Below, piece by piece: positions 5,673 to 42,806 of a stretch of DNA of 64,000 nt (positions are counted from its first letter, which is position 1; each line of letters opens with the position of its first letter). The translations under genes and the position numbers were made by a program. Source of the DNA: an uncultured Ulvibacter sp. (GTDB lineage: Bacteria > Bacteroidota > Bacteroidia > Flavobacteriales > Flavobacteriaceae); the NCBI GenBank assembly GCA_938041335.1, contig CALIAF010000004.1, positions 1 to 64,000 of the forward strand, written 5' to 3'. The notes under the pieces were generated by a model. The model was given only the letters and a program-made list of their open reading frames with translations, searched no databases and had not been told where the DNA came from.

Positions 5673-5706
5673 CCTAACGTCGATTTAATCTTATCTCGGC
5701 GTTAGG
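5673..5706 (+). terminator. Stem-loop after the Lys-rich gene
   Basis: CCTAACGTCGA (5673-5683) pairs with TCGGCGTTAGG (5696-5706), giving 11 pairs with one G-U, loop of 12. It lies 15 bases past the stop codon at 5658. The T-run after it is weak (CTTATTAC), so termination efficiency is uncertain. Confidence 0.5.
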
Positions 5707-5909
5707 CTTATTACAAACCAAACCTGTCTTACATTTCTCTCCTCTTTTTCAGTCACCAGTAAAGCCTGTCCCTGAGCTTTATTTTTAAAGTGTATACACC
5801 ATATTCTTGGTTCTTTCCTCCTTCTTCTATTTTCCCTTTGTTAAAAATTCTTCATGAATTCCCTCCATTCTTCATTGGTCATTCAAATAAAACATCATAC
5901 ATTTATTCT

Positions 5910-8111: not shown

Positions 8112-8135
8112 AAGTCTTATTTTTAACCCTTGAAA

Positions 8136-8591
8136 ATGAGTACAAAAACAGCACATAAAAATCAGGAAATCGTAAAGCAGGTTTTCACGGCCTTTCTAGA
8201 AGATAACGGTCACAGAAAAACACCAGAGCGATACGCCATCTTACAAGAAATTTACGATCAAGAAGAGCATTTTGATATAGAGTCACTCTATGTTAATATG
8301 AAGAACAAAAACTATCGCGTGAGCCGCGCTACCTTATACAACACCATAGAGTTGTTATTAGATTGTAAGTTAGTACGTAAACATCAGTTTGGTAAAAATC
8401 AGGCACATTTTGAGAAGTCTTATTTTGACAAACAGCACGATCACCTCATTTTAAATAGTGGTGAAGTGATAGAGTTTTGCGACCCACGAATACAGAATAT
8501 CAAAAAGACAATAGAAGAAGTATTTGATGTAGAGATTACAAATCACTCCTTATACTTCTACGGAAATAAGAAAAACACGACCAATACTTAA
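8136..8591 (+). CDS. Fur-family transcriptional regulator
   Basis: A 151-residue winged-helix repressor of the Fur/PerR/Zur family. The DNA-binding part reads [15 protein letters not shown]...[20 protein letters not shown]; the dimerisation part has the metal motif [19 protein letters not shown]. The usual first CxxC pair that follows HDHL in classical Fur is absent (ILNS), as is the second CxxC near the C terminus, so the structural zinc site looks lost. Which metal or peroxide signal it senses is open. I start at ATG 8136; a TTG six bases upstream is possible. It lies 24 bases after the (p)ppGpp enzyme gene and 3 bases before purA, so the three are likely one transcript. Confidence 0.88.
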
Positions 8592-8594
8592 ATT

Positions 8595-9866: not shown

Positions 9867-9902
9867 TTTTAGTAACATACAGACGTTACTAGTTTAACAA
9901 CA

Positions 9903-9935
9903 AAATACACGAATACTTTAAATTCGTGTATTTTT
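9903..9935 (+). terminator. Rho-independent terminator of purA
   Basis: AAATACACGAAT (9903-9914) pairs perfectly with ATTCGTGTATTT (9922-9933) around a 7-base loop, with T-rich sequence completing the tail (TTTTTGTTT). It closes the spoT-fur-purA unit. Confidence 0.8.
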
Positions 9936-9958
9936 GTTTATTGCTAATATATCCTTGA

Positions 9959-11776: not shown

Positions 11777-11782
11777 GAAGCT

Positions 11783-12976
11783 ATGAAAGAAGACTTCTTT
11801 ACCTATCAAGCGCAGACTACTCCTCACCCACTTGCCATGAATGTCTCTCACGCAAAAGGGAGTTATATTTATGACACTGATGGCGCAAAACATTTAGATT
11901 TTGTGGCTGGTGTTTCTGCTTGTAGTTTGGGGCATTGCCATCCACGCGTTACGGCAGCAGTTAAAAACCAAATAGACAAATATGCTCATGTAATGGTGTA
12001 TGGCGAGTATATACAAGAGCCAGCAGTGCAACTTTCACAATTATTAGCACAGCTTTTACCTAGTTCTTTAGAAACTACCTACCTCGTTAATAGCGGCACC
12101 GAAGCTATCGAGGGCGCTATGAAACTAGCAAGAAGAGCTACGGGCAGAAAAGAGATACTGTATGCTAATAATGCCTACCACGGAAATACCATGGGTGCAC
12201 TATCTGTGATGGGATTTGAAGATCGCAAAAAACCTTTTGAACCCCTCGTGCCTGAATGTCGTGCCATTACTTTTAATAATGTTCAGAACATTTCAGAAAT
12301 TACAGAGACCACCGCCGCGGTTATTTTAGAAACGATACAAGGTGGTGCTGGGTTTATTGAACCCATAAACGATTTTCTTAAAAAAGTAAAAACGCGTTGC
12401 CAAGAAGTTGGTGCACTCTTAATTCTTGACGAAATTCAACCCGGTTTTGGGCGTACTGGTAAACTCTTTGGTTTTATGCACTTTGACGTTGTGCCAGATA
12501 TACTGGTAATGGGTAAAGGGATGGGCGGCGGTTTACCTATTGGTGCCTTTACGGCTTCGAGAGATTTAATGGCACTTTTAAGTGACAATCCGAAATTAGG
12601 GCATATTACCACTTTTGGCGGCAATGCAGTGATCGCTTCGGCGGCATTAGCTACGCTGCAAGAGATTACAGAAACTTCTTTAATGAAAGACATCGAGGCA
12701 AAAGAAGCACTTTTCCGTAGTCATCTTACCCATCCTATGATTAAAGAAATAAGAGGTCGTGGTTTAATGTTAGCGCTACTTGTAGATTCTGGTGCGATTG
12801 CTTCGGAAACTATAATGAGATGCAAAACGCGCGGTCTCATTTTATTTTGGCTGCTATTTGAGCCAAAAGCAATAAGAATCACCCCTCCTTTGACTATTTC
12901 GGAAAAGGAAATAGTAGAAGGTTGCAAGATTATAATTGAAGTATTAGATGAATTAACAGAAGAATCTGCAAATTAA
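11783..12976 (+). CDS. PLP-dependent class III aminotransferase
   Basis: 397 residues of the acetylornithine/ornithine-type aminotransferase family, fold type I. Visible landmarks are VNSGTEAIEGAMKLARRATGR (PLP phosphate contact region), NAYHGNTMGALS, the cofactor Asp in LILDEIQPGFGRTG and the Schiff-base Lys245 in VMGKGMGGGLP. The C-terminal RITPPLTI motif is present. It lacks arginine-biosynthesis neighbours, so the amino donor and acceptor are undetermined; many flavobacterial genomes carry this gene directly after the OstA-like gene, as here (6-base gap). Cytosolic enzyme, family certain, substrate not. Confidence 0.88.
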   Translation: MKEDFFTYQAQTTPHPLAMNVSHAKGSYIYDTDGAKHLDFVAGVSACSLGHCHPRVTAAVKNQIDKYAHVMVYGEYIQEPAVQLSQLLAQLLPSSLETTYLVNSGTEAIEGAMKLARRATGRKEILYANNAYHGNTMGALSVMGFEDRKKPFEPLVPECRAITFNNVQNISEITETTAAVILETIQGGAGFIEPINDFLKKVKTRCQEVGALLILDEIQPGFGRTGKLFGFMHFDVVPDILVMGKGMGGGLPIGAFTASRDLMALLSDNPKLGHITTFGGNAVIASAALATLQEITETSLMKDIEAKEALFRSHLTHPMIKEIRGRGLMLALLVDSGAIASETIMRCKTRGLILFWLLFEPKAIRITPPLTISEKEIVEGCKIIIEVLDELTEESAN

Positions 12977-13049
12977 ACAATTGTTTTTCAGCAATTTACA
13001 TTCTTAAAATTCTGTTAATAACATTTTAACAACAATAGTGGTATACCTA

Positions 13050-13078
13050 TTGAGCTGTATACAATCCAAGTATCTTTA
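13050..13078 (+). promoter_or_regulatory. Candidate promoter for the TPR gene
   Basis: TTG (13050-13052), an 18-base spacer, and TATCTTTA (13071-13078) match the Bacteroidota TTG-N17-20-TAnnTTTG pattern except for the last base. It lies 28 bases before ATG 13107. Confidence 0.4.
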
Positions 13079-13106
13079 AAATAGTCAGAAACTTTACCCC
13101 CTTTGT

Positions 13107-14504
13107 ATGCAAAGACCAGGCGAGCAATCTAACCTATCTCTCACGCGTTTTGAATCCATGTTGAAAACTAACGACGTGTACTTCTTTGACGCTGAAGAAT
13201 TTGAAACAATAATCCATCACTATCTAGAGATTGGTAAAATTGCACTGGCTAAAAAAGCCACCAAACTCGCACTCGAACAACATCCATCTGCATCAAGTCT
13301 TAGACTTTTTCAGGTTGAGATGTTCATTTTTGAAGATAAATTAGATCAGGCAGAGGGCTTACTTGAAGAACTTCAATTATTAGAACAATCTAATGAAGAG
13401 ATTTATATTCAAAAAGCAAATATCTGTTCGCGTAGAGATAATCACACAGATGCAATATCCTTTTTAGAACGCGCTTTATCTTTAACTGATGACCAGGCAG
13501 ATGTATTATCATTAATAGGTATGGAATATTTATTTCTTGATGATTACACAAATGCTAAGTTTCAATTTATGAAATGCTTAGAATTTGATGAACAAGACTA
13601 TTCTGCACTTTATAATGTAATTTATTGTTTTGACTATTTAAAAGAGAGCGAAGCTGCCATAGATTTTCTCAATGATTTTCTAAACAAAAATCCATATAGT
13701 GAAGTAGCTTGGCACCAGATAGGAAAGCAATATTATTTTCTGAAAGATTACAAAAAGGCACTTGCGGCTTTTGATTTTGCCATTATTAGTGATGACGCCT
13801 TTATTGGCGCCTATCTTGAGAAAGGTAAAACCCAACAAAAATTAAAAAATTATGCAGGAGCTATTGAGAGTTATACGGTAACTCTTGGGCTGGACGACCC
13901 CACTTCTTTTGCCTTATTGAGAATAGGTAAGTGCTATGAAAAGTTAGGTGAGATGGAACTGGCACTTCAGTTTTATTTAAAGTGCGTTGAAGAAGATGGG
14001 CTTTTAGACAAAGCTTGGACAGCAATCACTGATTATTATTTTAGAAAAAAGGATTACCAGAAGTGCTTATACTATATAGACAAAGCGTTAAACATTGACA
14101 GTGAAAATGTACTCTACTGGAAAAGATACGCGACCATTTGTAAAAAACTCAACCTTTTTGAAGAAGCAGAGCACGGCTATAGGCGTACTCTAGAATTAGG
14201 AGATATAGAAATTGAAACTTGGATTGCACGTACCGACTTATTAATTCATTTAGGCGAGTTTAATTCTGCCATAAAAAACCTCAACCAAGCGACTGAGTTA
14301 TTCACCAATCATCCAGAAATTGAGTATCGATTAGGAGGTTTATATTTTCATTTAAACGAACAAGCAAAAGGGCGCTTTCATTTAAATAATGCACTGAGAG
14401 AAGACGCTGAGTACGTGATCATTCTTGAAGAATTATTCCCTGTGGTCTACGAAAATCAATTGGTGAAACAATTAATCTCAAATCACCAAAATGCTTCTCT
14501 TTAA
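13107..14504 (+). CDS. Tetratricopeptide-repeat protein
   Basis: 465 residues made almost entirely of TPR helix pairs; about ten repeats can be followed, for example KKALAAFDFAIISDDAFIGA, CYEKLGEMELALQFYLKCVE and YQKCLYYIDKALNIDSENV. There is no signal peptide, membrane segment or catalytic domain, so it is probably a cytosolic scaffold. The N terminus (QRPGEQSNLSLTRFESML) is not TPR and includes a short acidic stretch. This gene is commonly found near DUF368 genes in flavobacteria; the partners are unknown. It is separated from the next gene by 189 bases that include a weak stem-loop. Confidence 0.85.
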   Translation: MQRPGEQSNLSLTRFESMLKTNDVYFFDAEEFETIIHHYLEIGKIALAKKATKLALEQHPSASSLRLFQVEMFIFEDKLDQAEGLLEELQLLEQSNEEIYIQKANICSRRDNHTDAISFLERALSLTDDQADVLSLIGMEYLFLDDYTNAKFQFMKCLEFDEQDYSALYNVIYCFDYLKESEAAIDFLNDFLNKNPYSEVAWHQIGKQYYFLKDYKKALAAFDFAIISDDAFIGAYLEKGKTQQKLKNYAGAIESYTVTLGLDDPTSFALLRIGKCYEKLGEMELALQFYLKCVEEDGLLDKAWTAITDYYFRKKDYQKCLYYIDKALNIDSENVLYWKRYATICKKLNLFEEAEHGYRRTLELGDIEIETWIARTDLLIHLGEFNSAIKNLNQATELFTNHPEIEYRLGGLYFHLNEQAKGRFHLNNALREDAEYVIILEELFPVVYENQLVKQLISNHQNASL

Positions 14505-14534
14505 ATGGAAGTGGTTTAAATTGTTATGTTCTAG

Positions 14535-14560
14535 CTAAAATTATTGATTTTAGTTTATCT
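14535..14560 (+). terminator. Weak stem-loop after the TPR gene
   Basis: CTAAAAT (14535-14541) pairs with ATTTTAG (14547-14553), followed by TTTATCT. The stem is short and AT-rich, so this is a weak terminator candidate. A second small hairpin (GGTGC-ATA-GCACC, 14575-14587) lies just downstream. Confidence 0.35.
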
Positions 14561-14669
14561 CAAGTCTTTTTTGAGGTGCATAGCACCGCTACAAAACAAT
14601 AAAAAGGCGAAATATGAATTAAAAAGAATAATTTTCTGGCAAATGGAAAAAGATTAAATCACTTCATTG

Positions 14670-14677
14670 TACTTTTG
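14670..14677 (+). promoter_or_regulatory. Promoter -7 element TACTTTTG
   Basis: An exact TAnnTTTG match 16 bases before ATG 14694. No good -33 TTG was found at the usual distance, so this rests on the -7 element alone. The same octamer occurs before the SAM hydrolase gene and at mnmE. Confidence 0.4.
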
Positions 14678-14693
14678 AGGTAAAACGAACCTT

Positions 14694-15677
14694 ATGCCTT
14701 CAAGAAATTTACTACAATATGCTACTGTTTTATTTAAAGGTCTCGCTATGGGTGCAGCAGATGTTGTACCGGGAGTTTCGGGTGGAACAATCGCTTTTAT
14801 TTCTGGGATTTACGAAGAACTCATAGAAACCATACACAGATTAGATTTTGGTTTTTTTAAACACTGGAAAAGGGAAAGCTTTAGTAGTGCCTGGAAGGAG
14901 TATAACATAGGTTTTTTAATAGCCCTTTTTGGCGGAATTTTAATTAGTGTTTTATCCCTATCAAAAGTGATTTCGTATTTACTCGAAGTCCACCCTATAT
15001 TAGTCTGGTCATTCTTTTTTGGACTTGTCATTGCCAGCATTCTATTTGTAGGTAAACAAATTACAACTTGGAATGGTAAAGTTATTATTGCCACTATTCT
15101 TGCCATTGCTTTTTCCTATTTTATTACCATCGCAGAACCTTTAGGAACACCAGACAGCATGTGGTTTTTACTTTTTGCAGGCTTCATTGCAATCATCGCC
15201 ATGATTTTGCCAGGTATATCGGGAGCCTTTATCTTATTGCTTTTAGGAGCTTATACTGGGGTTATTGGTATTCTCAATGGTCTAAGAGACGGAGTAACAA
15301 ACTTAGACTGGGAGCTGTTTTCTGGAGCATTTATTAAACTTGTCGTTTTTGCTTTGGGAGCCATAGTAGGATTAAAGGTTTTTTCTGGGGCTTTAAACTG
15401 GTTATTTAAAAACCATAAAAATCTAATCCTGGCCATCTTAACTGGTTTTATGATAGGAGCACTTAACAAGATATGGCCATGGAAAGAAGTACTATCCACT
15501 AGAATAAACAGTCACGGTGAAGAAGTTACCTTTTTAGATAGAAGTATTCTTCCATCAAGTTTTGATGGAGCACCGCAAGTGCTATTTGCTATTGGAATGG
15601 CAATAACAGGGTTCTTAGTTATCTTTTTAATGGAGCGCTTTGCAAACTCAAAAAAGAACCGCGCAGAAAAAAGTTAA
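14694..15677 (+). CDS. DUF368 membrane protein, undecaprenyl-phosphate translocase family (first copy)
   Basis: 327 residues with about eight to nine hydrophobic segments. It has the two inverted family signatures: FKGLAMGAADVVPGVSGGT near residue 20 and AMILPGISGAFILLLLGAY near 170. Known: DUF368 proteins (PopT) recycle the lipid carrier undecaprenyl phosphate across the inner membrane. That assignment here is by family. A second DUF368 gene begins 1 base after the stop, and aroE overlaps that one, so the three are surely one transcript. The first copy lacks the charged loop seen in the second before its C-terminal segment. Confidence 0.9.
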   Translation: MPSRNLLQYATVLFKGLAMGAADVVPGVSGGTIAFISGIYEELIETIHRLDFGFFKHWKRESFSSAWKEYNIGFLIALFGGILISVLSLSKVISYLLEVHPILVWSFFFGLVIASILFVGKQITTWNGKVIIATILAIAFSYFITIAEPLGTPDSMWFLLFAGFIAIIAMILPGISGAFILLLLGAYTGVIGILNGLRDGVTNLDWELFSGAFIKLVVFALGAIVGLKVFSGALNWLFKNHKNLILAILTGFMIGALNKIWPWKEVLSTRINSHGEEVTFLDRSILPSSFDGAPQVLFAIGMAITGFLVIFLMERFANSKKNRAEKS

Positions 15678-30637: not shown

Positions 30638-30759
30638 ATTGATTGATTTTTTTTGATTGTACTTATTTGTAGTGTTTTTTTCTGAAATGTTACGAAATAT
30701 TTTTCGAACTCTTAAAATTTCCGAAGCATCTATCACCTATTTCACGACCAAATTTCATG

Positions 30760-30767
30760 TACTTTTG
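30760..30767 (+). promoter_or_regulatory. Promoter -7 element TACTTTTG at the mnmE start
   Basis: An exact TAnnTTTG match ends 4 bases before ATG 30772. If transcription starts about 5-8 bases after the element, the mRNA would be nearly leaderless. An in-frame ATG at 30757 overlaps this element and would be outside the transcript, which favours 30772 as the true start. No clear -33 element was found. Confidence 0.4.
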
Positions 30768-30771
30768 TAGG

Positions 30772-32169
30772 ATGATTCAAGACACCATAGTAGCCCTTGC
30801 TACGCCTGCAGGAGCAGGTGCTATTGCAGTAATCAGACTATCCGGTGGCGATGCAATACCAATCGCTTCTGCTATGTTCCATTCTGTTTCTGGAAAAAAA
30901 TTAAAAAATCAGCCTAGCCACACCGTTCATTTGGGTCATATAAAAGATGAACAACGTATTGTAGATGAAGTGCTCACTTCTATCTTTAAAAACCCTAAGA
31001 GTTACACGGGAGAAGATGTGGTAGAAATCTCTTGTCACGGGAGTAACTATATACAACAAGAAATCATACAATTATGTCTTCGGAAAGGTGCTCGAATGGC
31101 AACTGCGGGCGAGTTTACACTGCGTGCTTTTATAAACGGAAAAATGGACCTGAGTCAAGCCGAAGCTGTTGCAGACCTTATTGCCAGTGACTCTGAAGCT
31201 TCACACCAACTAGCCATCCAGCAAATGCGTGGTGGTTTTTCTAATGAGATTAAAGTGCTTAGACAAGAACTCCTTGATTTTGCCTCGCTCATAGAATTAG
31301 AATTAGACTTTGCTGAAGAAGATGTAGCTTTTGCAAATAGAGATGAATTTCAAAAACTAATCATTCGAATCACTCAAGTGCTAAAAAGATTGATAGATTC
31401 TTTTGCCACGGGTAACGTACTCAAAAATGGAATTCCTGTAGCGATCGTAGGTGAACCCAATGTGGGAAAATCTACTTTGTTAAACACTTTACTAAATGAA
31501 GAACGCGCCATTGTTAGTGATATCGCTGGTACCACAAGAGATACCATAGAAGATGAACTTAATATAGGAGGTATCGCCTTCCGTTTTATTGACACTGCAG
31601 GGATTAGGGAAACTAGTGACACCATCGAAGGCTTAGGCATTAAGAAGACCTTTGAAAAAATGGAACAAGCACAAGTAGTCTTGTTTTTAATACATGCAGC
31701 TGCCCTTATTAAGGACACCTCAGCATTTCAGATTGAAATAGAAAAAATAAAAAATAAGCATCCTCAAAAGACACTTGTTGTTGTTGCCAATAAAATGGAC
31801 ACGGTTGAAACCAAACACCTTTCAGAAATTGAAAATATACCTTTACCACAAAAGACGGTTTTAATCCCTATTTCTGCAAAAACAGGACAAGGTGTTGAAT
31901 CATTAAAAAACACATTACTAGATTTTGTAAATACAGGTGCCTTACGTAACAATGACACCATTGTCACTAACTCTCGTCACTATGATGCTTTATTAAAGGC
32001 CTTAGAAGAGATTGTTAGAGTGCAAGAAGGTATTGATAATAACCTTACCAGTGATTTAATGGCTATAGATATACGCCAAGCGCTGTATCATTTTGGTGAG
32101 ATTACTGGCGAGATTACAAATGATGATTTGCTGGGTAATATTTTTGCTAATTTCTGTATTGGAAAGTAA
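30772..32169 (+). CDS. mnmE: tRNA modification GTPase MnmE
   Basis: 465 residues. With MnmG it forms 5-(carboxymethylaminomethyl)uridine at the wobble base of some tRNAs. The N-terminal formyl-tetrahydrofolate-binding domain starts with MIQDTIVALATPAGAGAIAV. The GTPase domain lies near 215-375: G1 GEPNVGKST (about 226-234), G3 DTAGI, G4 NKMD, G5 SAK. The C-terminal catalytic motif FCIGK ends the protein. The 18 bases coding this motif, TTCTGTATTGGAAAGTAA (32152-32169), are the kind of site used for integration by SGI1-type islands. A degenerate second copy lies at 42678. Start at ATG 30772. Confidence 0.96.
   Translation: MIQDTIVALATPAGAGAIAVIRLSGGDAIPIASAMFHSVSGKKLKNQPSHTVHLGHIKDEQRIVDEVLTSIFKNPKSYTGEDVVEISCHGSNYIQQEIIQLCLRKGARMATAGEFTLRAFINGKMDLSQAEAVADLIASDSEASHQLAIQQMRGGFSNEIKVLRQELLDFASLIELELDFAEEDVAFANRDEFQKLIIRITQVLKRLIDSFATGNVLKNGIPVAIVGEPNVGKSTLLNTLLNEERAIVSDIAGTTRDTIEDELNIGGIAFRFIDTAGIRETSDTIEGLGIKKTFEKMEQAQVVLFLIHAAALIKDTSAFQIEIEKIKNKHPQKTLVVVANKMDTVETKHLSEIENIPLPQKTVLIPISAKTGQGVESLKNTLLDFVNTGALRNNDTIVTNSRHYDALLKALEEIVRVQEGIDNNLTSDLMAIDIRQALYHFGEITGEITNDDLLGNIFANFCIGK
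32128..32169 (+). repeat. 3' end of mnmE, left copy of a 42-bp direct repeat (attL-like)
   Basis: The last 42 bases of mnmE, coding LLGNIFANFCIGK-stop, recur at 42654-42695 with 34 of 42 bases identical. The inner 18 bases correspond to the known integration site of trmE-targeting islands. Confidence 0.55.
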
Positions 32170-32342
32170 ATTAATTAAAGATCGTTTTCCTCAAATTCAT
32201 GAGATAAATATGAGGTAAACAAAACTATTTTTTTAATGAACATTCATATATAGTTTGATTTCACGGCTATGCGTGAGGTTTTTAGTAGTAATTATTAAGA
32301 TATTGCACTTGAAAGAAAATTAATATTTAAAAAAAACTTGCT

Positions 32343-33794
32343 ATGAAAAAGACATTAACAACCTCTTTACTATTGTTAGCTTTTACTTGTAATATGCTAG
32401 CACAAGAAATCGAAATGGAACTCTACTTATCTACCCCAGACATCCAAGGATCTGACGGTGGAGACAGTCAATTTTTAGACATAGACAATGATGGCGATAA
32501 TGATATGATTATTGCAGGTAGAAATGGTGCTACACTAACAACACTTTATAGAAATGATGGAGAAGGAAATTTTACTGAAACTAATGCTGGTGTATTTACC
32601 GGTGTAGCATTTGGTGAGATAGTAACGAGTGATGTAGATGCCGATGGAGATATTGACCTATTTATTATGGGACAAACTCAAGGAGGATTAAACGCATCTA
32701 ATTTATTTTTTAATGATGGAACAGGAACATTCACGCTCATCACAAGTTCAAATATTGAGGCTCTAAGCGGAGACGGTGCTGAGTTTGGTGATATAGATAA
32801 TGACGGTGATGATGATCTTATAATTAGTGGTTATAATGATGCGAGCAATCAAACTACTAAGATGTATACAAACGATGGGCAAGGTGTTTTTACTCTAATG
32901 AGTACACCGCAATTTGACGGCTTATCAGGAAGGTATAGATTTATTGATTATGATAATGATGACGACATTGATGTCATCTTTACCGGATCAAATGAAACAG
33001 AAATCCCTATGACCAATCTATATACCAATAATGGATCTGGTGTTTTTAGCATTGTAGCAAACACTGGATTAAACAATTTAAGTGGTGGTGATATTGCTGT
33101 GGGTGATACAGATGATGATGGTGATCTTGATATACTAATTTGTGGAGCAGACTCAGAAAACGAAATTATTACTCAATTATTTATTAATGATGGTTCGGGA
33201 AACTTTGAGCTTATAGATAATACAATATTTAATGATGCCGCATTTGGTGAGGCCTCATTTAATGACTTTGATAACGATGGGGATCTTGATGCATTTGTCA
33301 TTGGTACCGGTAATGGTGGTTTAGTTGGTGAGGATGGAGAAAATACAATCTTAGGTAGTATTTATCAAAACGAAGGTGACAACAACTTTATTCTTGCACA
33401 AGAAATTATAGGAGGTTATTTTTCGCATCACGCTGTTGCAGACATTGATGGAAATGACACACTTGATCTTGTTTTAGGTGGCACAACTATAGGAGATCCT
33501 GCTAGGGGTTCATTTTTGTATAAAAACATTACAAAAATTATCTTGGGGGCGCAAGATCATACCTTAAATAGTGACTTTATTTTGCACCCAAACCCAGCGC
33601 AAAACAGTGTTACAATAGAAACTGCGGGCAATAAAACGGGGACTATTGAAATTTACTCAGCATTAGGACAACTTGTACATTCAGCTCTGTTGTCTGAAAA
33701 TAAAATACCACTTAATCTAACAGACGGAACTTATTTTGTGAATTTAAAAACTAATGATAATTATCAAGTGAAAAAGTTGATAATTAAAAAGTAA
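32343..33794 (+). CDS. FG-GAP/VCBS repeat protein with T9SS sorting tail
   Basis: 483 residues with a signal peptide (CNMLAQ). The body carries about seven beta-propeller blades of FG-GAP/VCBS type, each with a calcium-binding DxDxDGDxD turn (for example DIDNDGDNDMIIAG, DVDADGDIDLFIMG, DTDDDGDLDILICG). The last 75 residues (SDFILHPNPAQNSVTIETAG...LIIKK) are a type A T9SS C-terminal sorting domain, so the protein is exported across the outer membrane and probably attached to the surface. Cell-surface adhesion or glycan binding is plausible. It opens the accessory block that begins at the mnmE 3' end. Confidence 0.85.
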   Translation: MKKTLTTSLLLLAFTCNMLAQEIEMELYLSTPDIQGSDGGDSQFLDIDNDGDNDMIIAGRNGATLTTLYRNDGEGNFTETNAGVFTGVAFGEIVTSDVDADGDIDLFIMGQTQGGLNASNLFFNDGTGTFTLITSSNIEALSGDGAEFGDIDNDGDDDLIISGYNDASNQTTKMYTNDGQGVFTLMSTPQFDGLSGRYRFIDYDNDDDIDVIFTGSNETEIPMTNLYTNNGSGVFSIVANTGLNNLSGGDIAVGDTDDDGDLDILICGADSENEIITQLFINDGSGNFELIDNTIFNDAAFGEASFNDFDNDGDLDAFVIGTGNGGLVGEDGENTILGSIYQNEGDNNFILAQEIIGGYFSHHAVADIDGNDTLDLVLGGTTIGDPARGSFLYKNITKIILGAQDHTLNSDFILHPNPAQNSVTIETAGNKTGTIEIYSALGQLVHSALLSENKIPLNLTDGTYFVNLKTNDNYQVKKLIIKK

Positions 33795-33818
33795 AACAAA
33801 ATCCTCAATACTTAAATC

Positions 33819-33854
33819 AAATCCCATTTGTACATTGTGACACATGGGATTTTT
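33819..33854 (+). terminator. Terminator between convergent genes
   Basis: AAATCCCAT (33819-33827) pairs with ATGGGATTT (33844-33852), followed by T-rich sequence. It separates the FG-GAP gene (plus) from the LytTR regulator gene (minus); the A-rich side could serve the other strand too. Confidence 0.6.
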
Positions 33855-33884
33855 GCTGTGTATTAAAACATAGCAAATAATCAG

Positions 33885-36443
33885 TCAAAATTGAATCTTC
33901 TCTAATTCACTTAAATACGTCTCGCCAACTGGTATTTTATTATCTTTTATAAACACCCAATTTCTCCCTTTACTTGATACTTGGTCTATTCTAATAATAT
34001 AAGAGCGATGTATTCGTAAATATTCTAACGCATCTGGAGTCGTTGCAATAAAATCACCAATTTTACAACGAATCGTGTAGGTCTTATCTTTTGTTGAAAT
34101 ATCTAAATAATTACCTTCTGATTTTACATACAAAATAGTTCTACTTGGGATTTTAAAATCTTCTCCATTAGATCTAAAATAGTAAAACCGTTCTTTTCTC
34201 TTTAAACGCTTAATAGATAATCTAATTAGCTCTCTAATAATGGCTTGATCATACGTAAGCACTCGAATTTTAAAAAATAGATAAACCAGACCAGAGAATA
34301 GAATGGCGCAAATACCATAGAACCACCAACTTTTCCAGAATGGGGGTTGTATTTGAAAATCATAATTTATAAAATGATTACTAACAGAATTTGAGACTTT
34401 AGCTTTGGCTTGAAAAGTATATTTTCCTGGGGATAACGATGGGAAACTAATGTTTCTATACTTTGAAGATTTCCATACGGTATCAACTTCTTTTAATCGA
34501 TATAAATAGTCAATATTACCTGCGTTTTTATGAGATATTGCTTGAAGGGTAAAGTCTATTGTATTCTGATTGTGTTTTAATTTTGTGTCATAGCCAAAGA
34601 TTGAGTTAGAATTTGCTGTAACATCATCAAGAGTTAATGATAAGATTTCTGACACTGCTTTTTCTTCTAAAACTTCCTTTTTAAAATAGCATAACCCTTT
34701 CTTTGTTGCTACCCAAACTGTATCATTAATAATTTCAATATCATCTATGTCATTGCTTAATAAGCCATCGGCTTTAGTGATCGTAGTAACATCATATCTA
34801 TTATTAGATGTAAAAGCAATTCTATTTAACCCCGCATTGGAACAGGCCCAAATAGTAGAGTCATTTTCTATATGTATTTCACTTATAATGTTATTAGTAA
34901 GACCATGTTTTTTATTAATCGTATATATACTATCACCGTAAACGATAACTCCAGCTCCCTGTGTTGCCATATATACAGTATTGGTTTCTTTATTAAGATC
35001 TATATCATCTATTCTTAGTTTTAAACTTTTAATGGGGTGATACGCTTTTACAGAATCATCTTTTTGAATATGCAAACCTGATGAAGTACCTATTAATAAT
35101 TCGCCGTTATACATACATATATCTTGAATTTTATAATCAATTTCAAAATACTTAATACTATCATTTATTATTTTATAATATCTGTTATTGGTAGATGACA
35201 TTAATGGATGCCCTATATGTTCCGGAAGCTTATTGGCACCAACATAATATGATGTTTGTGTTGTATAATTGACAAAATTAGCATCACTATAACCATATAG
35301 GTGATTATTTATAGGATCAAATTCAACGATAGCATTATGATCATTTGATCCTTTGTACAATGTATTTAGTTTATTATTCGAAATATTTGCAATATCGCCA
35401 TTACTTAAACCAGCATATAAGCTATTCTTATTATCTTTTACTAAAGAGGATATATGTTCTTCAGAAAAGGCCTTTATGTCTGGGTTTTTAATGTAGAATA
35501 TACCATCATCTAGAGTACTAAACCAGTAACTCCCTTCTCGGTCTATTAATAAACTAGTAACGGATTTTTTGGGTAAAAATGTTTCTAGAATTGTTCCTGA
35601 TACATCTCTAATTACAGCCCCCCTGTTATAATAACCCACTAAAAATGAATGATCATTAACACGCTTAATACCAGTTGTTTTTAGTTCGGTTTCATAATAC
35701 CTAATATCAACACTTTTTGAGACAAGGCCTAGTTTTGCACCAATAAAAATGGATTGTTCTCTATTTAAGATAGCGAGATCCATTCTAGGAGTAGGGAAAT
35801 TTTCTGGAGGAAGCACCACTACTTCATCTGTTGATTTGTAATCATTGCAAAGAGAAAAAAATAATTTTTCTCTAGTGTGAATACCTATACTAGCACTTTG
35901 ATTTTCTCCTAATTGATCAGCACTTATATCATAATCAAAATGTTTTATTAAATCACCTTCTTTTGTAATCTCGATAAAACCACAAACTCCATAGCCCCCA
36001 ATAAATACGGTATCATTCTCATCAATAACAATACTCTTAATAAGACTACTCGAATTCAATTGTTCTTTTAAAATAGTATTGTACTTAAACGCTGTAAAGC
36101 CATCAAATTCTTCATTAAAATAAAAAAGACTTTGACTATAATATCCATAGAACCATACTTGCCCATTTTCTTGAGGGAAGAAATCTAAAATCGTATTGTC
36201 TGGCAAACCATCTTGAGTGGTAAAGTTTTCAAATTCGTACCCATTATATCGTGACAGCCCTTTATCTGTTGCAAACCAAATGTAGCCTTGTTTGTCTTGA
36301 TATATATCATAAATTTCAGAGCTTGGCAAACCATCATCTACGCCAAAATGGGTGTAAATATGCGTTTGCGAATAGCTTGTTTGAACAATAAAAAACAGGG
36401 CTAATATGTAGTAGTATACCTTCAAAGAAAATGATTTAGGCAA
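33885..36443 (-). CDS. Two-component-propeller sensor with LytTR DNA-binding output
   Basis: 852 residues. A signal peptide or leader helix is followed by a long periplasmic beta-propeller region with Reg_prop repeats (YDIYQDKQGYIWFATDKGLSRY, NGQVWFYG, VNDTVWVATKKGLCYF), then a Y_Y_Y domain (YRLKEVDTVWKSSKY, LSPGKYTFQAKAK), one membrane helix near 715-735 and a C-terminal LytTR domain (TILYVKSEGNYLDISTKD, RIHRSYIIRI). It lacks the histidine kinase found in classical hybrid two-component systems, so it would couple a periplasmic signal to DNA binding in one membrane protein. It is divergent from the LRR surface gene, the likely target (inference). Confidence 0.85.
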   Translation of the reverse strand: MPKSFSLKVYYYILALFFIVQTSYSQTHIYTHFGVDDGLPSSEIYDIYQDKQGYIWFATDKGLSRYNGYEFENFTTQDGLPDNTILDFFPQENGQVWFYGYYSQSLFYFNEEFDGFTAFKYNTILKEQLNSSSLIKSIVIDENDTVFIGGYGVCGFIEITKEGDLIKHFDYDISADQLGENQSASIGIHTREKLFFSLCNDYKSTDEVVVLPPENFPTPRMDLAILNREQSIFIGAKLGLVSKSVDIRYYETELKTTGIKRVNDHSFLVGYYNRGAVIRDVSGTILETFLPKKSVTSLLIDREGSYWFSTLDDGIFYIKNPDIKAFSEEHISSLVKDNKNSLYAGLSNGDIANISNNKLNTLYKGSNDHNAIVEFDPINNHLYGYSDANFVNYTTQTSYYVGANKLPEHIGHPLMSSTNNRYYKIINDSIKYFEIDYKIQDICMYNGELLIGTSSGLHIQKDDSVKAYHPIKSLKLRIDDIDLNKETNTVYMATQGAGVIVYGDSIYTINKKHGLTNNIISEIHIENDSTIWACSNAGLNRIAFTSNNRYDVTTITKADGLLSNDIDDIEIINDTVWVATKKGLCYFKKEVLEEKAVSEILSLTLDDVTANSNSIFGYDTKLKHNQNTIDFTLQAISHKNAGNIDYLYRLKEVDTVWKSSKYRNISFPSLSPGKYTFQAKAKVSNSVSNHFINYDFQIQPPFWKSWWFYGICAILFSGLVYLFFKIRVLTYDQAIIRELIRLSIKRLKRKERFYYFRSNGEDFKIPSRTILYVKSEGNYLDISTKDKTYTIRCKIGDFIATTPDALEYLRIHRSYIIRIDQVSSKGRNWVFIKDNKIPVGETYLSELEKIQF

Positions 36444-36692
36444 ATGTAATGGTATTTAAAATAGGGCTGATAATTACTGTTCTGTGTTCATCACTTTTAT
36501 AGACCTGTTTATCACAATCTCCATAATAACGGTGTTTAAGGAGGCTAAATAATCATTTTTTAAATTTAACTAATCAATTATTCATTCTATCACTTTTTTC
36601 TATGGTGTTCGTCACAAACCTACTTTTTGATGTTTTTTCTTACAATTCTAAGTCTAGTTTTGGTTTAAAATAATATTAAAACAAATTTAATT

Positions 36693-38906
36693 ATGAAAAA
36701 GAACTTACTTATTTTATTTGCCCTATTTATAACTGCTATAGGGTATTCTCAGTCTTTTACGGAAAATTTTATTACGTATAATGTACAGAATAATACCCAA
36801 CTTAATAAAGTGCTAATTTCTGATTATGATATAGCAGGGGGACCTATAGTTAACATTCCCGCTACGGTTACTAATGGCGGTGTAACTTATAGTGTCACAA
36901 TTATTTATAACGGTGCTTTTGCGCAAAAGCAATTAACCAGTGTTACCATACCAAATACGGTAACCGAAATATGGGCTAGCGCTTTTGGTTGGAATCAATT
37001 AACAACGGTAGTAATTCCGGACTCTGTTACGTCTTTATATGCTGGTGCATTTCAAAGTAATCAATTAACTAGTGTTACGCTGCCAGAAAACTTAACAACT
37101 ATTGGTAATGATTCGTTTAAAAACAATCTATTAACAAGTGTTACTATTCCATCTTCTGTGAACGATATTCAAGAAGAAGCATTTAGAAATAACGTTTTAA
37201 CTAGTGTTACTATTCCAAATACGGTAACAAGTTTAGGCACTTCAACTTTTGCAAATAATCAATTAACAAGTGTTACTATTTCTAATGGTTTAACAACCAT
37301 TGGGAATTCAGTTTTTAGAAGTAACCCATTAACAAGTGTTACTATTCCAAGTTCTGTAACTAGTATAGGTGATAGTGCTTTTCGCGATAATCAATTAACG
37401 ACTGTTAACTTTTCAAATGGCCTATTAAGTATTGATTTTGGAGCCTTTCTTAATAATCAAATAACAAGTATTACATTTCCTGATAGTATTACATCTATTG
37501 GCACCTCTTCTTTTTTTGATAATCAAATAACAAGTGTAATAATTCCTGATAGCGTAACAAACATTGGTAATTTTGCCTTTCTAGAAAATCAATTAACTAG
37601 TGTTACTCTTGGTAATAATGTTGGGAACATTGGAGATAGGGCTTTTAACGATAATCAATTAACGAATATTACCATTCCAAGTAGCGTTACGACTATTGGC
37701 GATAGAGCATTTAAAAATAATCCATTAACAAGTGTGGTGTCAGAAGCAATGATTCCACCTACAATCACAACAGGAGGGTTCAATGATGCTTTTAGTGAAG
37801 ATCGTAGTAGTATTCAATTAACAATACCAGCCAATACATTAGGAGCTTATGTTACAGATACAGGAGCTTTATGGACTGGTTTTAATAGCGTTACAGAAGA
37901 CTTTCAAGTAGGCAATAATTTTGTGAGCGATTTTATTACTTATGAACTCACAACAGCTACAACCATTTCTGCAATAGACTATGACACTGCTGGCGGTGCT
38001 GTGGTTGATGTTCCTGCTACAAAAATAAACGGTGTGCTTACCTATGATGTAACTCAAGTAGGCGATTTTGCTTTTGCAAGTAATTCCTTAACAGAAGCGA
38101 CACTAGCAAGCAGTATCACAAACATAGGCCAGCAAGCCTTTGTTGATAATGAAATAGCAAGTATCACAATTCCTGATGGAGTTACAAACATTGGTCAAGG
38201 TGCTTTTGCGCTTAATAACCTTACCATTATCGTGACTCCAGATAGTGTAACTAGTATAGGAGATAGCGCTTTTGAGAGCAATTCAATCGCTAGTGCAACA
38301 CTGCCTAATACGCTTACAACAATAGGCAATAACGTGTTCACTAATAATAGTTTAACAAGTATCACTATTCCAGATACTGTAACAAGTATAGGTATTGGTG
38401 CTTTTTATGAAAATCAATTAACTAGTATTACCATACCTGAAAATGTTAGCACTATTGGAGCTAGTGCTTTTGGCGACAACCTACTTACAACAGTAACAAC
38501 TGAAGCTATAATACCCCCTACCATAACGACCACTGGCAACGCTACTGATACTTTTGGCGATGATCGCAATACTATAGATTTATTTATTCCAGGTGGGACG
38601 TATGATGCCTATGTGACAGATACTGGCGCTTTATGGACCGGTTTTAATTCTGTGACAGATCCATTTTTAGGTACTTCGGATGTCTCTTTGTTAAATGATT
38701 TAGTACTTATAAATACTTCGGAAATGTTACAAATCATTACCAATGGTACTGCAACATTACAAAGGTATCAGGTCTTTAATATTTCCGGAGCACTCGTAAA
38801 AGAAGGAACTGATCCTTCTGTTGAAATTAGTAATCTATCTAACGGGTTCTATGTCATAGCACTAACATTTGACACAGGCTCAATTATTAAAAAGTTTGCT
38901 AAATAA
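36693..38906 (+). CDS. BspA-type leucine-rich-repeat surface protein with T9SS tail
   Basis: 737 residues with a signal peptide (ITAIGYSQ). Two matching modules follow. Module 1 has an entry segment (FITYNVQNNTQ...), 12 LRR_5 repeats of 22 residues each such as LTSVTIPSSVTSIGDSAFRD, and a cap with LGAYVTDTGALWTGFNS. Module 2 (from about residue 412) has the same entry (DFITYELTTAT...), 6 repeats and the same cap (DAYVTDTGALWTGFNS). A type A T9SS sorting domain (ISNLSNGFYVIALTFDTGS) closes the protein. BspA-like LRR proteins bind host or matrix proteins; this one is probably an adhesin. It is divergent from the propeller/LytTR gene. Confidence 0.85.
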   Translation: MKKNLLILFALFITAIGYSQSFTENFITYNVQNNTQLNKVLISDYDIAGGPIVNIPATVTNGGVTYSVTIIYNGAFAQKQLTSVTIPNTVTEIWASAFGWNQLTTVVIPDSVTSLYAGAFQSNQLTSVTLPENLTTIGNDSFKNNLLTSVTIPSSVNDIQEEAFRNNVLTSVTIPNTVTSLGTSTFANNQLTSVTISNGLTTIGNSVFRSNPLTSVTIPSSVTSIGDSAFRDNQLTTVNFSNGLLSIDFGAFLNNQITSITFPDSITSIGTSSFFDNQITSVIIPDSVTNIGNFAFLENQLTSVTLGNNVGNIGDRAFNDNQLTNITIPSSVTTIGDRAFKNNPLTSVVSEAMIPPTITTGGFNDAFSEDRSSIQLTIPANTLGAYVTDTGALWTGFNSVTEDFQVGNNFVSDFITYELTTATTISAIDYDTAGGAVVDVPATKINGVLTYDVTQVGDFAFASNSLTEATLASSITNIGQQAFVDNEIASITIPDGVTNIGQGAFALNNLTIIVTPDSVTSIGDSAFESNSIASATLPNTLTTIGNNVFTNNSLTSITIPDTVTSIGIGAFYENQLTSITIPENVSTIGASAFGDNLLTTVTTEAIIPPTITTTGNATDTFGDDRNTIDLFIPGGTYDAYVTDTGALWTGFNSVTDPFLGTSDVSLLNDLVLINTSEMLQIITNGTATLQRYQVFNISGALVKEGTDPSVEISNLSNGFYVIALTFDTGSIIKKFAK

Positions 38907-38919
38907 AAACAAAATATAC

Positions 38920-38965
38920 AATCCAGAGATAGTACATTTTGGGGAAGGTGTACTATAGCTGGATT
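38920..38965 (+). terminator. Large stem-loop after the LRR gene
   Basis: A 17-base arm (38920-38936, AATCCAGAGATAGTACA) pairs with 38949-38965 at 15 of 17 positions, loop of 12. No strong T-run follows, so it may be an mRNA-stabilising hairpin rather than a terminator. Confidence 0.45.
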
Positions 38966-38993
38966 AAGTAATACAGCAATTAAAACAAATACC

Positions 38994-39560
38994 ATGAAAA
39001 AAATACAAATAGTAATAGCGGTCATTTACATCGCCACACTAACATCTTGTGGAGGTGGATCGAGCCATCAGGCAGCCACTGCCGAAGGATTTACAGCTAT
39101 TGAACAAGCGTTAAAAAGCAAATTTGGTGATGATGCCTATTACACAGATCTATCTGTTACATACAATGCTTCTGTTGGAAATATTATAGGAGTAACCGTT
39201 ACAGAAGACCCAGCATCCTTACAAATGGGACAATGGAATGAAATGCAAGGCACTTGGACACAAAACTCAGATATCACTCTTGAAATTCCCAAAGGAACCA
39301 ATGCAGAAGAGTATATGTTTCAGTTAAACGACAATATCAATCTCACCAAATTAGGAGGATTAATTGAGACATCAAGTAAAAAGCTAACCCTCGAAAAAAA
39401 TATTGAGCATCCAACTTTGGCTATTGCCTATATATCTTTTCCAGATAATGGAGACATCGCAAAAGCCAATTATAATATCAAATTAAAGCCAGAAAACGGA
39501 GGCACTTCTTTTAATTTCTCTTATTCGCTAAATGGAGCGTTAATTGAAATGGATTACTAA
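38994..39560 (+). CDS. Small lipoprotein in the surface-gene block
   Basis: 188 residues. Lipobox LTSCGGGSS (Cys at 19). The mature part is mixed alpha/beta (FTAIEQALKSKFGDDAYY, GNIIGVTVTEDPASL) without a recognised domain, membrane segment or repeat. It lies between the LRR gene and the 17-residue-repeat gene, all on the plus strand, and ends 52 bases before the latter. It may be an envelope partner of one of them. Unknown function. Confidence 0.65.
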   Translation: MKKIQIVIAVIYIATLTSCGGGSSHQAATAEGFTAIEQALKSKFGDDAYYTDLSVTYNASVGNIIGVTVTEDPASLQMGQWNEMQGTWTQNSDITLEIPKGTNAEEYMFQLNDNINLTKLGGLIETSSKKLTLEKNIEHPTLAIAYISFPDNGDIAKANYNIKLKPENGGTSFNFSYSLNGALIEMDY

Positions 39561-39612
39561 GCATCAAAAGCAAAATTATAAATACTCAATTTGATTATTA
39601 TAAAGCACCTCT

Positions 39613-42129
39613 ATGGAAAAGGCACATCATACTAAAAGACTTTCTAATTTTATTAGCGTGGTACTATTGGTATCCCTTTTTGGATGTGATGCATACGGGC
39701 AAGTAGGTATCAATACCATTGACCCTCAGGCTTCTTTAGATATTAGAGCTTCAAACCAATCTACACCTTCAAATACAGATGGAATTTTAATACCAAAAAT
39801 AGATAGTTTCCCAACTGTAAACCCCTCTGCTAGTCAAAATGGAATGCTCGTTTTTTTAACATCAGATAATGTTTTTTATTATTGGGAGAATAGCACAACT
39901 ACTTGGATCGCTCTAGCTTCAGGAGGAAATGTAGATCGAGTAAATGATTTAGTTGATGGCAAAAGCGATCTGGATGGCACAGAAAATGGTTCCTCGGTGT
40001 TTTTAGGAATAAATGCAGGTGCGAATGATGATGCTACAGATAATAGAAATGTTGGTTTCGGTTTTGAAGCTTTAACTTCTAACACAACTGGGAGTAACAA
40101 TTTAGCAAGCGGTTACCGCTCCTTAAATGCAAATACTACAGGTAATGATAATATAGCCATTGGATTAGAATCTTTATCTTCTAATACAGCAGGATGGTAT
40201 AACTTGGCAATTGGTAATTATTCTTTGTTTTCTTCAACTGCAGGATTTCATAATATTGCAATAGGTCGCTCTACTTTATACACTAATACAACAGGCGGAA
40301 GCAATGTAGCAATCGGTAATGCGGCTTTACAAAGCAATACAACAGGGGATCTTAATATAGCGATTGGCTACCTTTCGTTGTTTGCTAATACAACCGGAAA
40401 TAGCAACGTAGCCAATGGTTCTGAATCTTTGTCTTCTAATACAACTGGTTTTCATAATTTGGCAATAGGGCATCGTTCTTTATGGTCTAATACAACAGGT
40501 GAGGGTAATCTAGCATTTGGCGTGAACTCTTTAAGAGATAATACCACTGGTATTTATAACATAGCTAGAGGATCTGCATCTTTGCATAACAACACGACAG
40601 GTAATTACAATATAGCAACGGGTCAGTCTGCTTTATATAATAATACAACAGGTGATAATAACATAGCAAATGGGTATCAATCTTTATATAATAATACAAC
40701 AGCCGATAACAATATAGCAGATGGGTATCAATCTTTGCAAAATAATACAACAGGTGCCAGTAACATAGCCACTGGATATCAATCTTTGCGACATAACACG
40801 ACAGGTTCTAATAATATAGCTACTGGAAATCAATCTTTACAAGCTAATACAACAGGTGTACATAATATAGCTAGTGGTTCTCAATCTTTATACACCAACA
40901 CTTCTGGCAGTAATAACATAGCAACCGGGAATCAAACTTTGCGACTTAATACCACAGGTAGTAATAACACGGCCAATGGTGATAGCGCTTTACGCACTAA
41001 TACAACAGGTGATAATAACATAGCGACTGGATATCAATCTTTATATTCTAATACAACAGGTAGTACTAATATAGCACACGGAGATAGGTCTTTACGCACA
41101 AATTCCATTGGTAGTAATAATATAGCAACTGGCTCTCAATCTTTATTTTCTAATGTTAATGGCAGTTATAATATTGCACAAGGCTTTGAACCTTTGTTTA
41201 ATAATATATCTGGTTGGAATAATGTAGCAGTTGGTTTTAAATCTTTACATGCAAATACTACGGGCTCTAACAATATTGCATATGGACTTTTTTCCTTAAA
41301 CAGTAATACTACAGGGAGTAACAATATAGCCATAGGTTCTCAATCTTTACAAAATAATACAATAGGTAGTAATAACATAGCCATTGGTTATCAAGCAGGT
41401 ACTAATGAAGTAGGAGACAATAAATTATATATAGAAAACACATGGAATAATGCAGATAGTGCTTTAGTTTATGGCGAATTTGATACTGACATCATTAGGT
41501 TTAATGGAGCAATAGAAGTTGGTGTACCCGGAGATTCAAGTTATTTAGAAATTTCAAATTTAGGTAGTAATAATTTAGGTTTAGATGGAAATATAATACC
41601 AGTATCAGGATCAGCTTCAGGCTTTGATTTAGGCAATAATAATGCTGCAGAACATTGGGATGATGTCGTTGGAAATAGTCTCATCACTTTTTCAGATAGA
41701 AGCACAAAAAACAATATCAAATTGCTAGAATACGGTCTTTCAGAAATCATGAAACTCAAACCGGTTACCTATCAATATAAAAAAGAAATAAGCCCTAATG
41801 ACAGAACAAGAATAGGTTTAATTGCCCAAGATGTAGAAAAAATAGTACCAGAAGTAGTTATTACAGAAGACGTTGATTTTAATACCGTAACAGGAGAGGT
41901 AGTTCGTGAAAAGTCAGATATAAAAGCAATGGCCTATTTAGAATTACTCCCTGTTCTAATCAAGGCAGTGCAAGAACAACAGGAAATGATTAAGAAACAA
42001 CAGGATGAAATGGAAAGGCAAATACTAATCGTTAAAACCCAAAACACCAAAATCGAATACTTAGAATCACAGCTTAAAAAACAACAACAGGAAATTGACG
42101 CTATTAAAAAACTTTTAAAAAAATCGTAA
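39613..42129 (+). CDS. Repeat fibre protein with endosialidase-type chaperone domain
   Basis: 838 residues. The N terminus is hydrophobic and can be read either as a lipoprotein (SLFGC) or as a signal peptide cut after YGQ before VGINTIDPQASLDI, a common opening of flavobacterial surface proteins. Residues 145-586 are 26 uninterrupted 17-residue repeats of type NNIATGYQSLYSNTTGS, close to trimeric autotransporter head repeats. A linker leads to a Peptidase_S74 (endosialidase intramolecular chaperone) domain, SDRSTKNNIKLLEYGLSEIM...RIGLIAQDVEKIVPEVV, and a final coiled coil from about 785. S74 domains trimerise and often cut themselves off; a trimeric beta-roll fibre on the surface is inferred. 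No T9SS tail. Confidence 0.82.
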   Translation: MEKAHHTKRLSNFISVVLLVSLFGCDAYGQVGINTIDPQASLDIRASNQSTPSNTDGILIPKIDSFPTVNPSASQNGMLVFLTSDNVFYYWENSTTTWIALASGGNVDRVNDLVDGKSDLDGTENGSSVFLGINAGANDDATDNRNVGFGFEALTSNTTGSNNLASGYRSLNANTTGNDNIAIGLESLSSNTAGWYNLAIGNYSLFSSTAGFHNIAIGRSTLYTNTTGGSNVAIGNAALQSNTTGDLNIAIGYLSLFANTTGNSNVANGSESLSSNTTGFHNLAIGHRSLWSNTTGEGNLAFGVNSLRDNTTGIYNIARGSASLHNNTTGNYNIATGQSALYNNTTGDNNIANGYQSLYNNTTADNNIADGYQSLQNNTTGASNIATGYQSLRHNTTGSNNIATGNQSLQANTTGVHNIASGSQSLYTNTSGSNNIATGNQTLRLNTTGSNNTANGDSALRTNTTGDNNIATGYQSLYSNTTGSTNIAHGDRSLRTNSIGSNNIATGSQSLFSNVNGSYNIAQGFEPLFNNISGWNNVAVGFKSLHANTTGSNNIAYGLFSLNSNTTGSNNIAIGSQSLQNNTIGSNNIAIGYQAGTNEVGDNKLYIENTWNNADSALVYGEFDTDIIRFNGAIEVGVPGDSSYLEISNLGSNNLGLDGNIIPVSGSASGFDLGNNNAAEHWDDVVGNSLITFSDRSTKNNIKLLEYGLSEIMKLKPVTYQYKKEISPNDRTRIGLIAQDVEKIVPEVVITEDVDFNTVTGEVVREKSDIKAMAYLELLPVLIKAVQEQQEMIKKQQDEMERQILIVKTQNTKIEYLESQLKKQQQEIDAIKKLLKKS
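40045..41416 (+). repeat. 51-bp coding tandem repeat, 26 full units and one partial
   Basis: The 17-residue repeat is coded by 26 units of exactly 51 bases from 40045 to 41370 without any insertion or deletion, then a partial unit. The consensus is N-[NH]-[IL]-A-x-G-x-x-[SA]-L-x-x-N-T-T-G-[SD]. Sequence between units varies at the DNA level, so expansion is old or under protein-level selection. Confidence 0.9.
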
Positions 42130-42400
42130 AGCGGTCGATGCGTTGAGTTATTTTTAGTTTCCAATTAAATGTTTCAAATAATCTCATTAAAATAAGAACG
42201 TTCTAAAACAATAAAAAACAACTAAACATCAATTTTAGTTTTAGTCATTTCGCTGTCATTACAGACACTTATTTTTCACAGAAGAAGGCTATAGACAATA
42301 TAAAAAACGAATAACTAAGGCATCAAGAGAATGACACTACCAAAGTCAAGTTATTAAACATCCTTTCCTCCAGTTTCTCGAGCTTTAACTACAAAAGCTC

Positions 42401-42650
42401 CGAAGAAAAACTCAAAAAGCAAATAGTTTAGCAAAACAATTGAATCATAAAAAAGGGGATGCAAAAAGCTTTTTAAGGTTAGGTATTCAACATCAAAAAA
42501 ATCAGAATTGGATGAAGCTGAAGCATTGACCTGAAAGCGCTTAAACGATAGTAAGAAATAAACGATCAAGCTGCTATTGACGCTTCACACACTAATTTGG
42601 GTAATGTAGCACATTATAACAAAGTTTTGAATTCTAGTAAAAAAAACAAC
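42401..42650 (+). pseudogene. Decayed tetratricopeptide-repeat protein
   Basis: Three reading frames in succession spell a plausible TPR sequence. From 42404 in one frame the translation includes QKANSLAKQLNHKKGDAKSF and LGIQHQKNQNW; from 42508 in a second frame it reads LDEAEALT, then a stop, then KRLNDSKK; from 42558 in a third it reads INDQAAIDASHTNLGNVAHY. This order (A-K-Q-L, L-G-x-x-H, D-E-A-E-A-L, L-G-N-V-A) is that of consecutive TPR helices. At least two frameshifts and several stops show it is dead. It runs in frame into the mnmE 3'-end remnant. Confidence 0.55.
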
Positions 42651-42653
42651 AAT

Positions 42654-42695
42654 TTGCTGGGTACTATTTTTGCACACTTTTGTGTTGGGAAGTAG
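42654..42695 (+). repeat. Degenerate copy of the mnmE 3' end (attR-like)
   Basis: TTGCTGGGTACTATTTTTGC and the following bases code LLGTIFAHFCVGK-stop, against LLGNIFANFCIGK-stop in mnmE. DNA identity is 34 of 42, protein identity 10 of 13. The core 18 bases (42678-42695) match the mnmE core at 14 of 18. It is separated from mnmE by 10.5 kb of accessory genes. Confidence 0.6.
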
Positions 42696-42806
42696 ATAAA
42701 AACTGCGCTGCCCACTTCCTTATTGTTTTATAACTTTAACAAATCTCTATATTTACAGAATATGTTGTGTGTCGCATTGCGAACAAACTCATCTTAACAA
42801 ACGTGT

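Follow-up and report, generated by a model that had tools for sequence, protein, structure and literature searches.

The mnmE locus and its accessory block

The DNA analysed here is a stretch of 64,000 nucleotides from an uncultured Ulvibacter sp. (the window), in which 10.5 kb of accessory genes lie between the 3' end of mnmE and a second, worn copy of that end. The assembly holding the window is 96.9% complete. The mnmE gene (30757–32169, forward strand) encodes a tRNA modification GTPase (NCBIfam TIGR00450 equivalog, 403 bits), whose counterpart in the closest congener, G005, is 88% identical; it is the host gene of the integration site discussed below. Its last 42 bp (32128–32169, forward) form the left repeat, and the final 18 bp of these (32152–32169) correspond to the core used by mnmE elements in flavobacteria. 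The right repeat (42654–42695, forward) is a worn mnmE 3' tail with its core at 42678–42695. To its right lies a resident gene for a DUF2339 membrane protein (Pfam PF10101; 42807–45179, forward), and from 43062 onwards the DNA is collinear with that of G005.

Between the repeats, Pfam searches returned the domains by which the genes had been named in the initial annotation, as they did for the DUF2339 gene beyond the block. The gene next to mnmE encodes an FG-GAP repeat protein with a type IX secretion system (T9SS) sorting tail (32343–33794, forward; PF13517, PF18962). It is followed, on the reverse strand, by a gene for a Reg_prop/Y_Y_Y propeller protein with a LytTR DNA-binding domain (33885–36443; Pfam), which has no close homologue in ten congeners, the best match being 25% over 473 residues. 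Next come a BspA-type leucine-rich repeat (LRR) protein (LRR_5, PF13306; 36693–38906, forward), with a best match of 27% among the mnmE loci compared, and a putative lipoprotein of 188 residues (38994–39560, forward), which belongs to no Pfam family and is present in only one of 11 genus genomes, the window's own. The last gene encodes a fibre-like protein with an S74 chaperone domain (Peptidase_S74, PF13884; 39613–42129, forward).

A non-coding or decayed stretch with stops in all frames (42130–42651) abuts the right repeat. The initial annotation had seen a decayed tetratricopeptide repeat (TPR) gene here, and by eye 42430–42695 does resemble frameshifted TPR units. This origin was not confirmed: with X at the stops, the three frames of 42430–42695 gave no TPR family in Pfam at E up to 1 and no match to the open reading frames (ORFs) of the mnmE loci compared.

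A degenerate direct repeat of the mnmE 3' end

A second copy of the final 42 bases of mnmE lies in the same orientation at 42654–42695, with 34 of 42 positions identical, and the terminal 18-base cores share 14 of 18; direct comparison and BLAST bear out both observations of the initial annotation. The BLAST alignment spans 49 bp at 81.6% identity (32126–32174 against 42652–42700; E 4.5e-9, the target being the 20 kb downstream). Both repeats end at a stop codon, and the right copy codes LLGTIFAHFCVGK-stop, as had been read initially. The leftmost 11–12 bases of the two repeats are identical, and the eight differences within the 42 bp are all found further right; over the last 45 bases of mnmE there are nine differences, one of them outside the final 42. 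A search of all 3.25 Mb of the assembly with the mnmE tail gave, besides mnmE itself, one good match, the right copy (E 1.7e-6; the next has E 0.14). An 18-base weight matrix built from mnmE ends was used to scan 124 loci, with several genomes present twice; the right copy scores 21.7 bits, compared with 15.1 for the best reversed-sequence control and 20.2 for the best minus-strand site. The score of the 18-base core alone is thus not far over that of the highest minus-strand site. A few minus-strand core-like sites, scoring up to 20.2 bits, occur downstream of mnmE; these may be due to chance or may be inverted insertions.

The similarity of the two repeats extends well beyond the core. In the window, the 26 bases upstream of the right core match the mnmE coding sequence at 22 positions. 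The corresponding bases of 24 other right copies in 19 genomes, counted after eight loci duplicating genomes under another id had been dropped, match their own mnmE at 3–14 of 26, and 25,400 random placements of the comparison gave a mean of 7.4 and a maximum of 18. By this measure the right copy represents no ordinary attR but 44 or more bases of a worn mnmE tail. When the last 150 bases of mnmE were compared by BLAST with the downstream DNA of 117 loci, many of about 10 kb, no other repeat starting so far upstream was found. A DNA search of 148 genomes for this type of right copy, with up to five candidates per genome scored, returned five genomes at E ≤ 0.001, the window's own included. The matches in G023 and G037 were rejected as extended second copies, being their own mnmE ends, as was that in G051, which covers a different, AT-rich part of the query; the fifth genome was G109, where the place of the match was not checked. 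Among the matches listed in a protein search of 299 genomes there is a displaced mnmE tail in G260 (L233, G260:C4:537491–537851). This 3' piece (tblastn, residues 347–470, 54%) lies on a contig other than that of the intact mnmE and follows a gene that by eye resembles a pseudouridine synthase.

The repeats differ by about 0.22 substitutions per site over 42 bp, a length too short for dating, compared with a synonymous divergence (dS) of 1.5 between mnmE of the window and of G005. If derived from the resident mnmE, the right copy would therefore be younger than the split between window and G005, and the 'old' island of the initial annotation is doubtful; if the tail is foreign, an age based on the repeat carries no meaning. 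The synonymous choices TTG CTG GGT are common to both repeats and occur in none of the congener mnmE ends seen. An attempt to tell a resident from a foreign tail by its synonymous sites ended, by eye, in a tie.

The block in comparison with congeners

The 10.5-kb block is absent from G005. There mnmE is followed by ORFs of 119 and 521 residues, together 2.2 kb, and then by the DUF2339, DUF3999 and recG-like genes, which are collinear with those of the window. The expectation that a genome lacking the block would have mnmE directly beside DUF2339 was therefore not borne out; judged from these gene orders, the block is specific to the window's lineage, but G005 is not a clean empty site. The 119-residue gene also follows mnmE in G006 and L165, and within the genus it occurs in two of 11 genomes (G005 and G006). 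A DUF2339 match is found in only three of the 11 (G000, which is the window's own, G005 and G009); that in G009 lies on a 4.2-kb contig of a genome without a true mnmE match. A comparison of the first ~170 bp after mnmE in the window with other loci gave no left-end motif in common.

The mnmE 3' end as an integration hotspot in Flavobacteriales

The mnmE neighbourhoods compared were those of relatives' genomes plus 80 named loci, nearly all of the latter with up to 10 kb of downstream DNA. Second copies of the core, approximately TTYTGYATHGGNAARTAR, lie downstream of mnmE on the same strand in 6 of 19 genomes, for which as much as 76 kb was scanned, and in five of the 80 named loci (one of the five being the same genome as G018); the named loci gave no core match on the minus strand and none in a reversed control. 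The core pattern itself was found in 266 of 299 genomes scanned. Ten genomes with at least two same-strand copies on one contig were picked, by choice and not at random, among the matches listed. One of these, G092 (L207–L210), has four same-strand copies in 64 kb; identical 26-base stretches follow two of them, and the arrangement is probably a tandem array of insertions. Bases after the core also repeat in G092, G233, G099, G024 and G037, as in tandem insertions. Second core copies downstream of mnmE presumably mark the ends of islands.

A tyrosine-recombinase gene, which the initial annotation had proposed to look for at related loci, is frequent there. In G031 and L171 the first larger gene after mnmE encodes a tyrosine integrase of 384–386 residues with Arm-DNA-bind_5, Phage_int_SAM_5 and Phage_integrase domains. 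Of the named loci, 74 have 2.5 kb or more of downstream DNA, and 30 of these carry a homologue (tblastn, E < 1e-8) in the first 5 kb after mnmE; in the 5 kb before mnmE, none of 76 does. In 35 relatives, the four best matches to the G031 integrase (G041, G047, G012 and G017) are all situated 0.6–0.9 kb downstream of mnmE. A tree was built from 42 integrases adjacent to mnmE and 12 others; 41 of the former fall in one group, with a support of 93/96 that is just below the tool's threshold of 95/80; the 12 others lie outside it, as does the mnmE-adjacent integrase of G014, on a long branch. In G028 (L075), a broken integrase of the mnmE type is followed, within 2.2–16.1 kb, by genes that by eye resemble a metal-efflux cluster, and a core copy at +14 kb ends this stretch.

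Eight named loci (L163, L134, L132, L127, L156, L161, L120 and L129) have one common element, which begins no more than about 60 bp from the mnmE stop. The element is 77–95% identical over approximately 6.0–9.9 kb, while mnmE is 71–80% identical. Between Winogradskyella wandonensis (L163) and Meridianimaribacter flavus (L134) it is 95.3% identical over 6.5 kb with mnmE at 73.6%, and some inter-genus pairs reach 90–95% over 6.0–6.5 kb with mnmE at 72–80%. Because the identity of the element exceeds that of mnmE between genera, the element has been transferred horizontally, with the mnmE stop as its boundary. At the eight loci TTY TGY still varies, but ATCGGGAAGTAA is common to seven of them, which places the crossover within the last ~12–18 bases of mnmE. 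The element backbone encodes HTH_17 proteins, DUF6617, BT4734-like_N and DUF3987/PriCT_2 primase-like proteins, and in W. wandonensis the cargo includes a 703-residue Piwi-domain protein (L163:19162–21270).

Some loci have no integrase at this place. None lies between mnmE and the core copy in L102, L138, L115, G018, G037 or G038. What is apparently one single-gene cassette is found in two genera (L102:11652–12620 and L138 ~11613–12575); its Fic domain is confirmed by Pfam in L102, and L138 has a similar N-terminus. In G038 (L089), one mini-cassette of about 0.6 kb is followed by another of about 1.0 kb, with core copies 0.6 and 1.6 kb after mnmE and no integrase seen in either. In G023 (L067) the island after mnmE (2765–15612) has PADLOC matches to type I restriction subunits and a phospholipase effector, together with a weak Argonaute-type match, and a core copy about 24 kb downstream.

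Taken together, the mnmE 3' end in Flavobacteriales is a site-specific integration hotspot with an 18-base core like that of Salmonella genomic island 1 (SGI1), and this is a more valuable result than the window's own case. The initial annotation's proposal of an SGI1-like insertion thus holds for the family, in which hotspot, integrase and 18-base core are all present; for the window it holds less well, the right copy being no ordinary 18-base attR.

Origin of the block

We tentatively read the block as the scar of an island at the mnmE 3' end that lacks an integrase and has an atypical right end, with a probability of about 0.45; the second copy exceeds in length the usual mark of an insertion. 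A tyrosine integrase would have joined a circular element to the gene by recombination between the last ~12–18 bp of mnmE and a matching site on the element, so that the incoming DNA restored the gene's end and a second copy of that end came to mark the far side. The integrase and mobility genes would later have been lost, leaving the cargo between worn repeats in the manner of a cis-mobilizable element. The additional 26 or more mnmE bases at the right end may stem from an earlier imprecise excision that carried off a piece of a former host's mnmE.

An island is favoured by the repeat, which is far over chance, by its direct orientation and by its stop-codon end. It is also favoured by what is seen at the site elsewhere: integrases downstream only, core copies, a single integrase clade, inter-genus transfer of elements, and the integrase-less precedents in L102, L138, L115, G018, G037 and G038. 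The block is in addition species-specific, as judged by the lipoprotein and the LytTR gene, with a DUF2339 side collinear with G005. The repeats do flank cargo free of recombination genes, and they would be the att sites of the former element.

Several observations weigh against this reading. The block has no remaining integrase or mobile-element gene, and a tblastn search of 32170–42695 with a 386-residue mnmE-type integrase found no remnant (best E 0.65), in agreement with the initial annotation, which had seen no integrase; nor is there a full-length mnmE-type integrase in the whole assembly. The assembly also lacks the 119-residue gene, which would be expected on the right-hand side of an insertion. 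For the element common to eight loci, the crossover lies in the last ~12–18 bp of mnmE, unlike the longer homology of the window with its 22 of 26 upstream matches. The extended right copy, the missing integrase and the missing 119-residue gene set the window apart from clean members of the hotspot class. The G+C content of the block (0.30–0.36) is only slightly lower than that of the flanks (0.33–0.38) and is not decisive. Relatives of the FG-GAP and S74 families occur elsewhere in the window's own genome and in congeners at 28–46% identity, mostly partial; among these are a paralogue of the FG-GAP protein in its own genome (G000:C12; 34% identity) and relatives of the S74 fibre at other places in G005 and G006 (43–46%, partial). 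This cargo therefore need not be imported, and part of the block, by sequence similarity, consists of families normal for the genus.

A close rival, only somewhat less probable, needs no integrase: the right copy would be a stray duplicate of the mnmE tail, produced by illegitimate recombination or brought in on a transformed foreign fragment, which landed beside DUF2339 as the interval was rebuilt and the 119- and 521-residue genes were replaced. Homology that begins well upstream of the 18-base core and the loss of the 119-residue gene both agree with this, the ectopic piece in G260 shows that longer tails do get displaced, and the shared TTG CTG GGT is expected of a duplicate made within the lineage. 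Such an origin would nevertheless require chance to have placed the tail in direct orientation, with its stop-codon end, at the far edge of an accessory block and in a proven hotspot.

It is improbable, by comparison with the island scar and the stray duplicate, that a different, unseen integrase crossed over ~45 bp before the mnmE stop, in the identical stretch TTTGCTGGGTA, in which case the element would have supplied the tail that mnmE now has, and the right copy would be the resident tail that it displaced. Identity at the left end of the repeats with every difference to its right is the pattern expected of an exchange there, but the identical run is short, and the ends of an alignment tend towards identity in any case; the BLAST comparison of the 117 loci found no second repeat with so early a start. 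Chance resemblance or convergence is nearly excluded, since, even though the core alone scores only slightly over the best minus-strand site, the E value of the repeat in the whole assembly and the 22 upstream matches (against at most 18 in random placements) speak against it.

The island reading of the window can be joined with the hotspot in a wider and, as a whole, rather doubtful proposal. The last 18 bases of mnmE would be a hotspot of two phyla, at which a distinct flavobacterial integrase lineage disseminates cargo, defence genes among it, also in the form of single-gene cassettes without an integrase and of tandem arrays; the element in the window would have captured the mnmE coding tail of a former host, making the target end part of the mobile unit.

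Significance and comparison with known systems

In Flavobacteriales the mnmE end has been used heavily and recently across genera, and an integrase lineage is tied to the site. The position directly after mnmE is a simple place to seek defence and other cargo genes in marine Bacteroidota. A testable question also follows, namely what draws integrases of different phyla to the FCIGK-stop end, and the window provides a concrete case of a scar that departs from the usual att anatomy. Proteobacteria are already known for insertions at the mnmE 3' end, by which multidrug-resistance islands spread. In the openly licensed PMC literature, no report of an mnmE/trmE hotspot or of mnmE-targeting elements in Bacteroidetes or Flavobacteria was found.

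In published accounts, SGI1 is described as targeting the end of the mnmE gene, with an 18-bp terminal target (PMC6531882, PMC7449626), and the mnmE 3' end is given as the target of both SGI1 and MGIVchHai6 (PMC7449626, PMC5704250, PMC8409611). SGI1 belongs to a phylum other than that of Flavobacteriales, and its likeness to the present case lies in the target site. Cargo that is flanked by att sites and has no recombination module of its own is termed a cis-mobilizable element (CIME). If its repeats are att sites, the window resembles a CIME in this arrangement. The integrase-less cassettes (L102 and L138 with Fic; G018, G037 and G038) likewise have accessory DNA between mnmE and a core copy, but they measure 0.6–4.3 kb and have the ordinary 18-base homology, whereas the block in the window measures 10.5 kb. 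The flavobacterial mnmE elements (L163, L134, L171 of Arenibacter sp. F26102, and G031) carry an integrase immediately downstream of mnmE, and their attR, in the cases seen, has about 18 bp of mnmE, in contrast to the window with no integrase and 26 more bases; with these elements the window shares the target end, the direction, the far-end copy and the accessory cargo.

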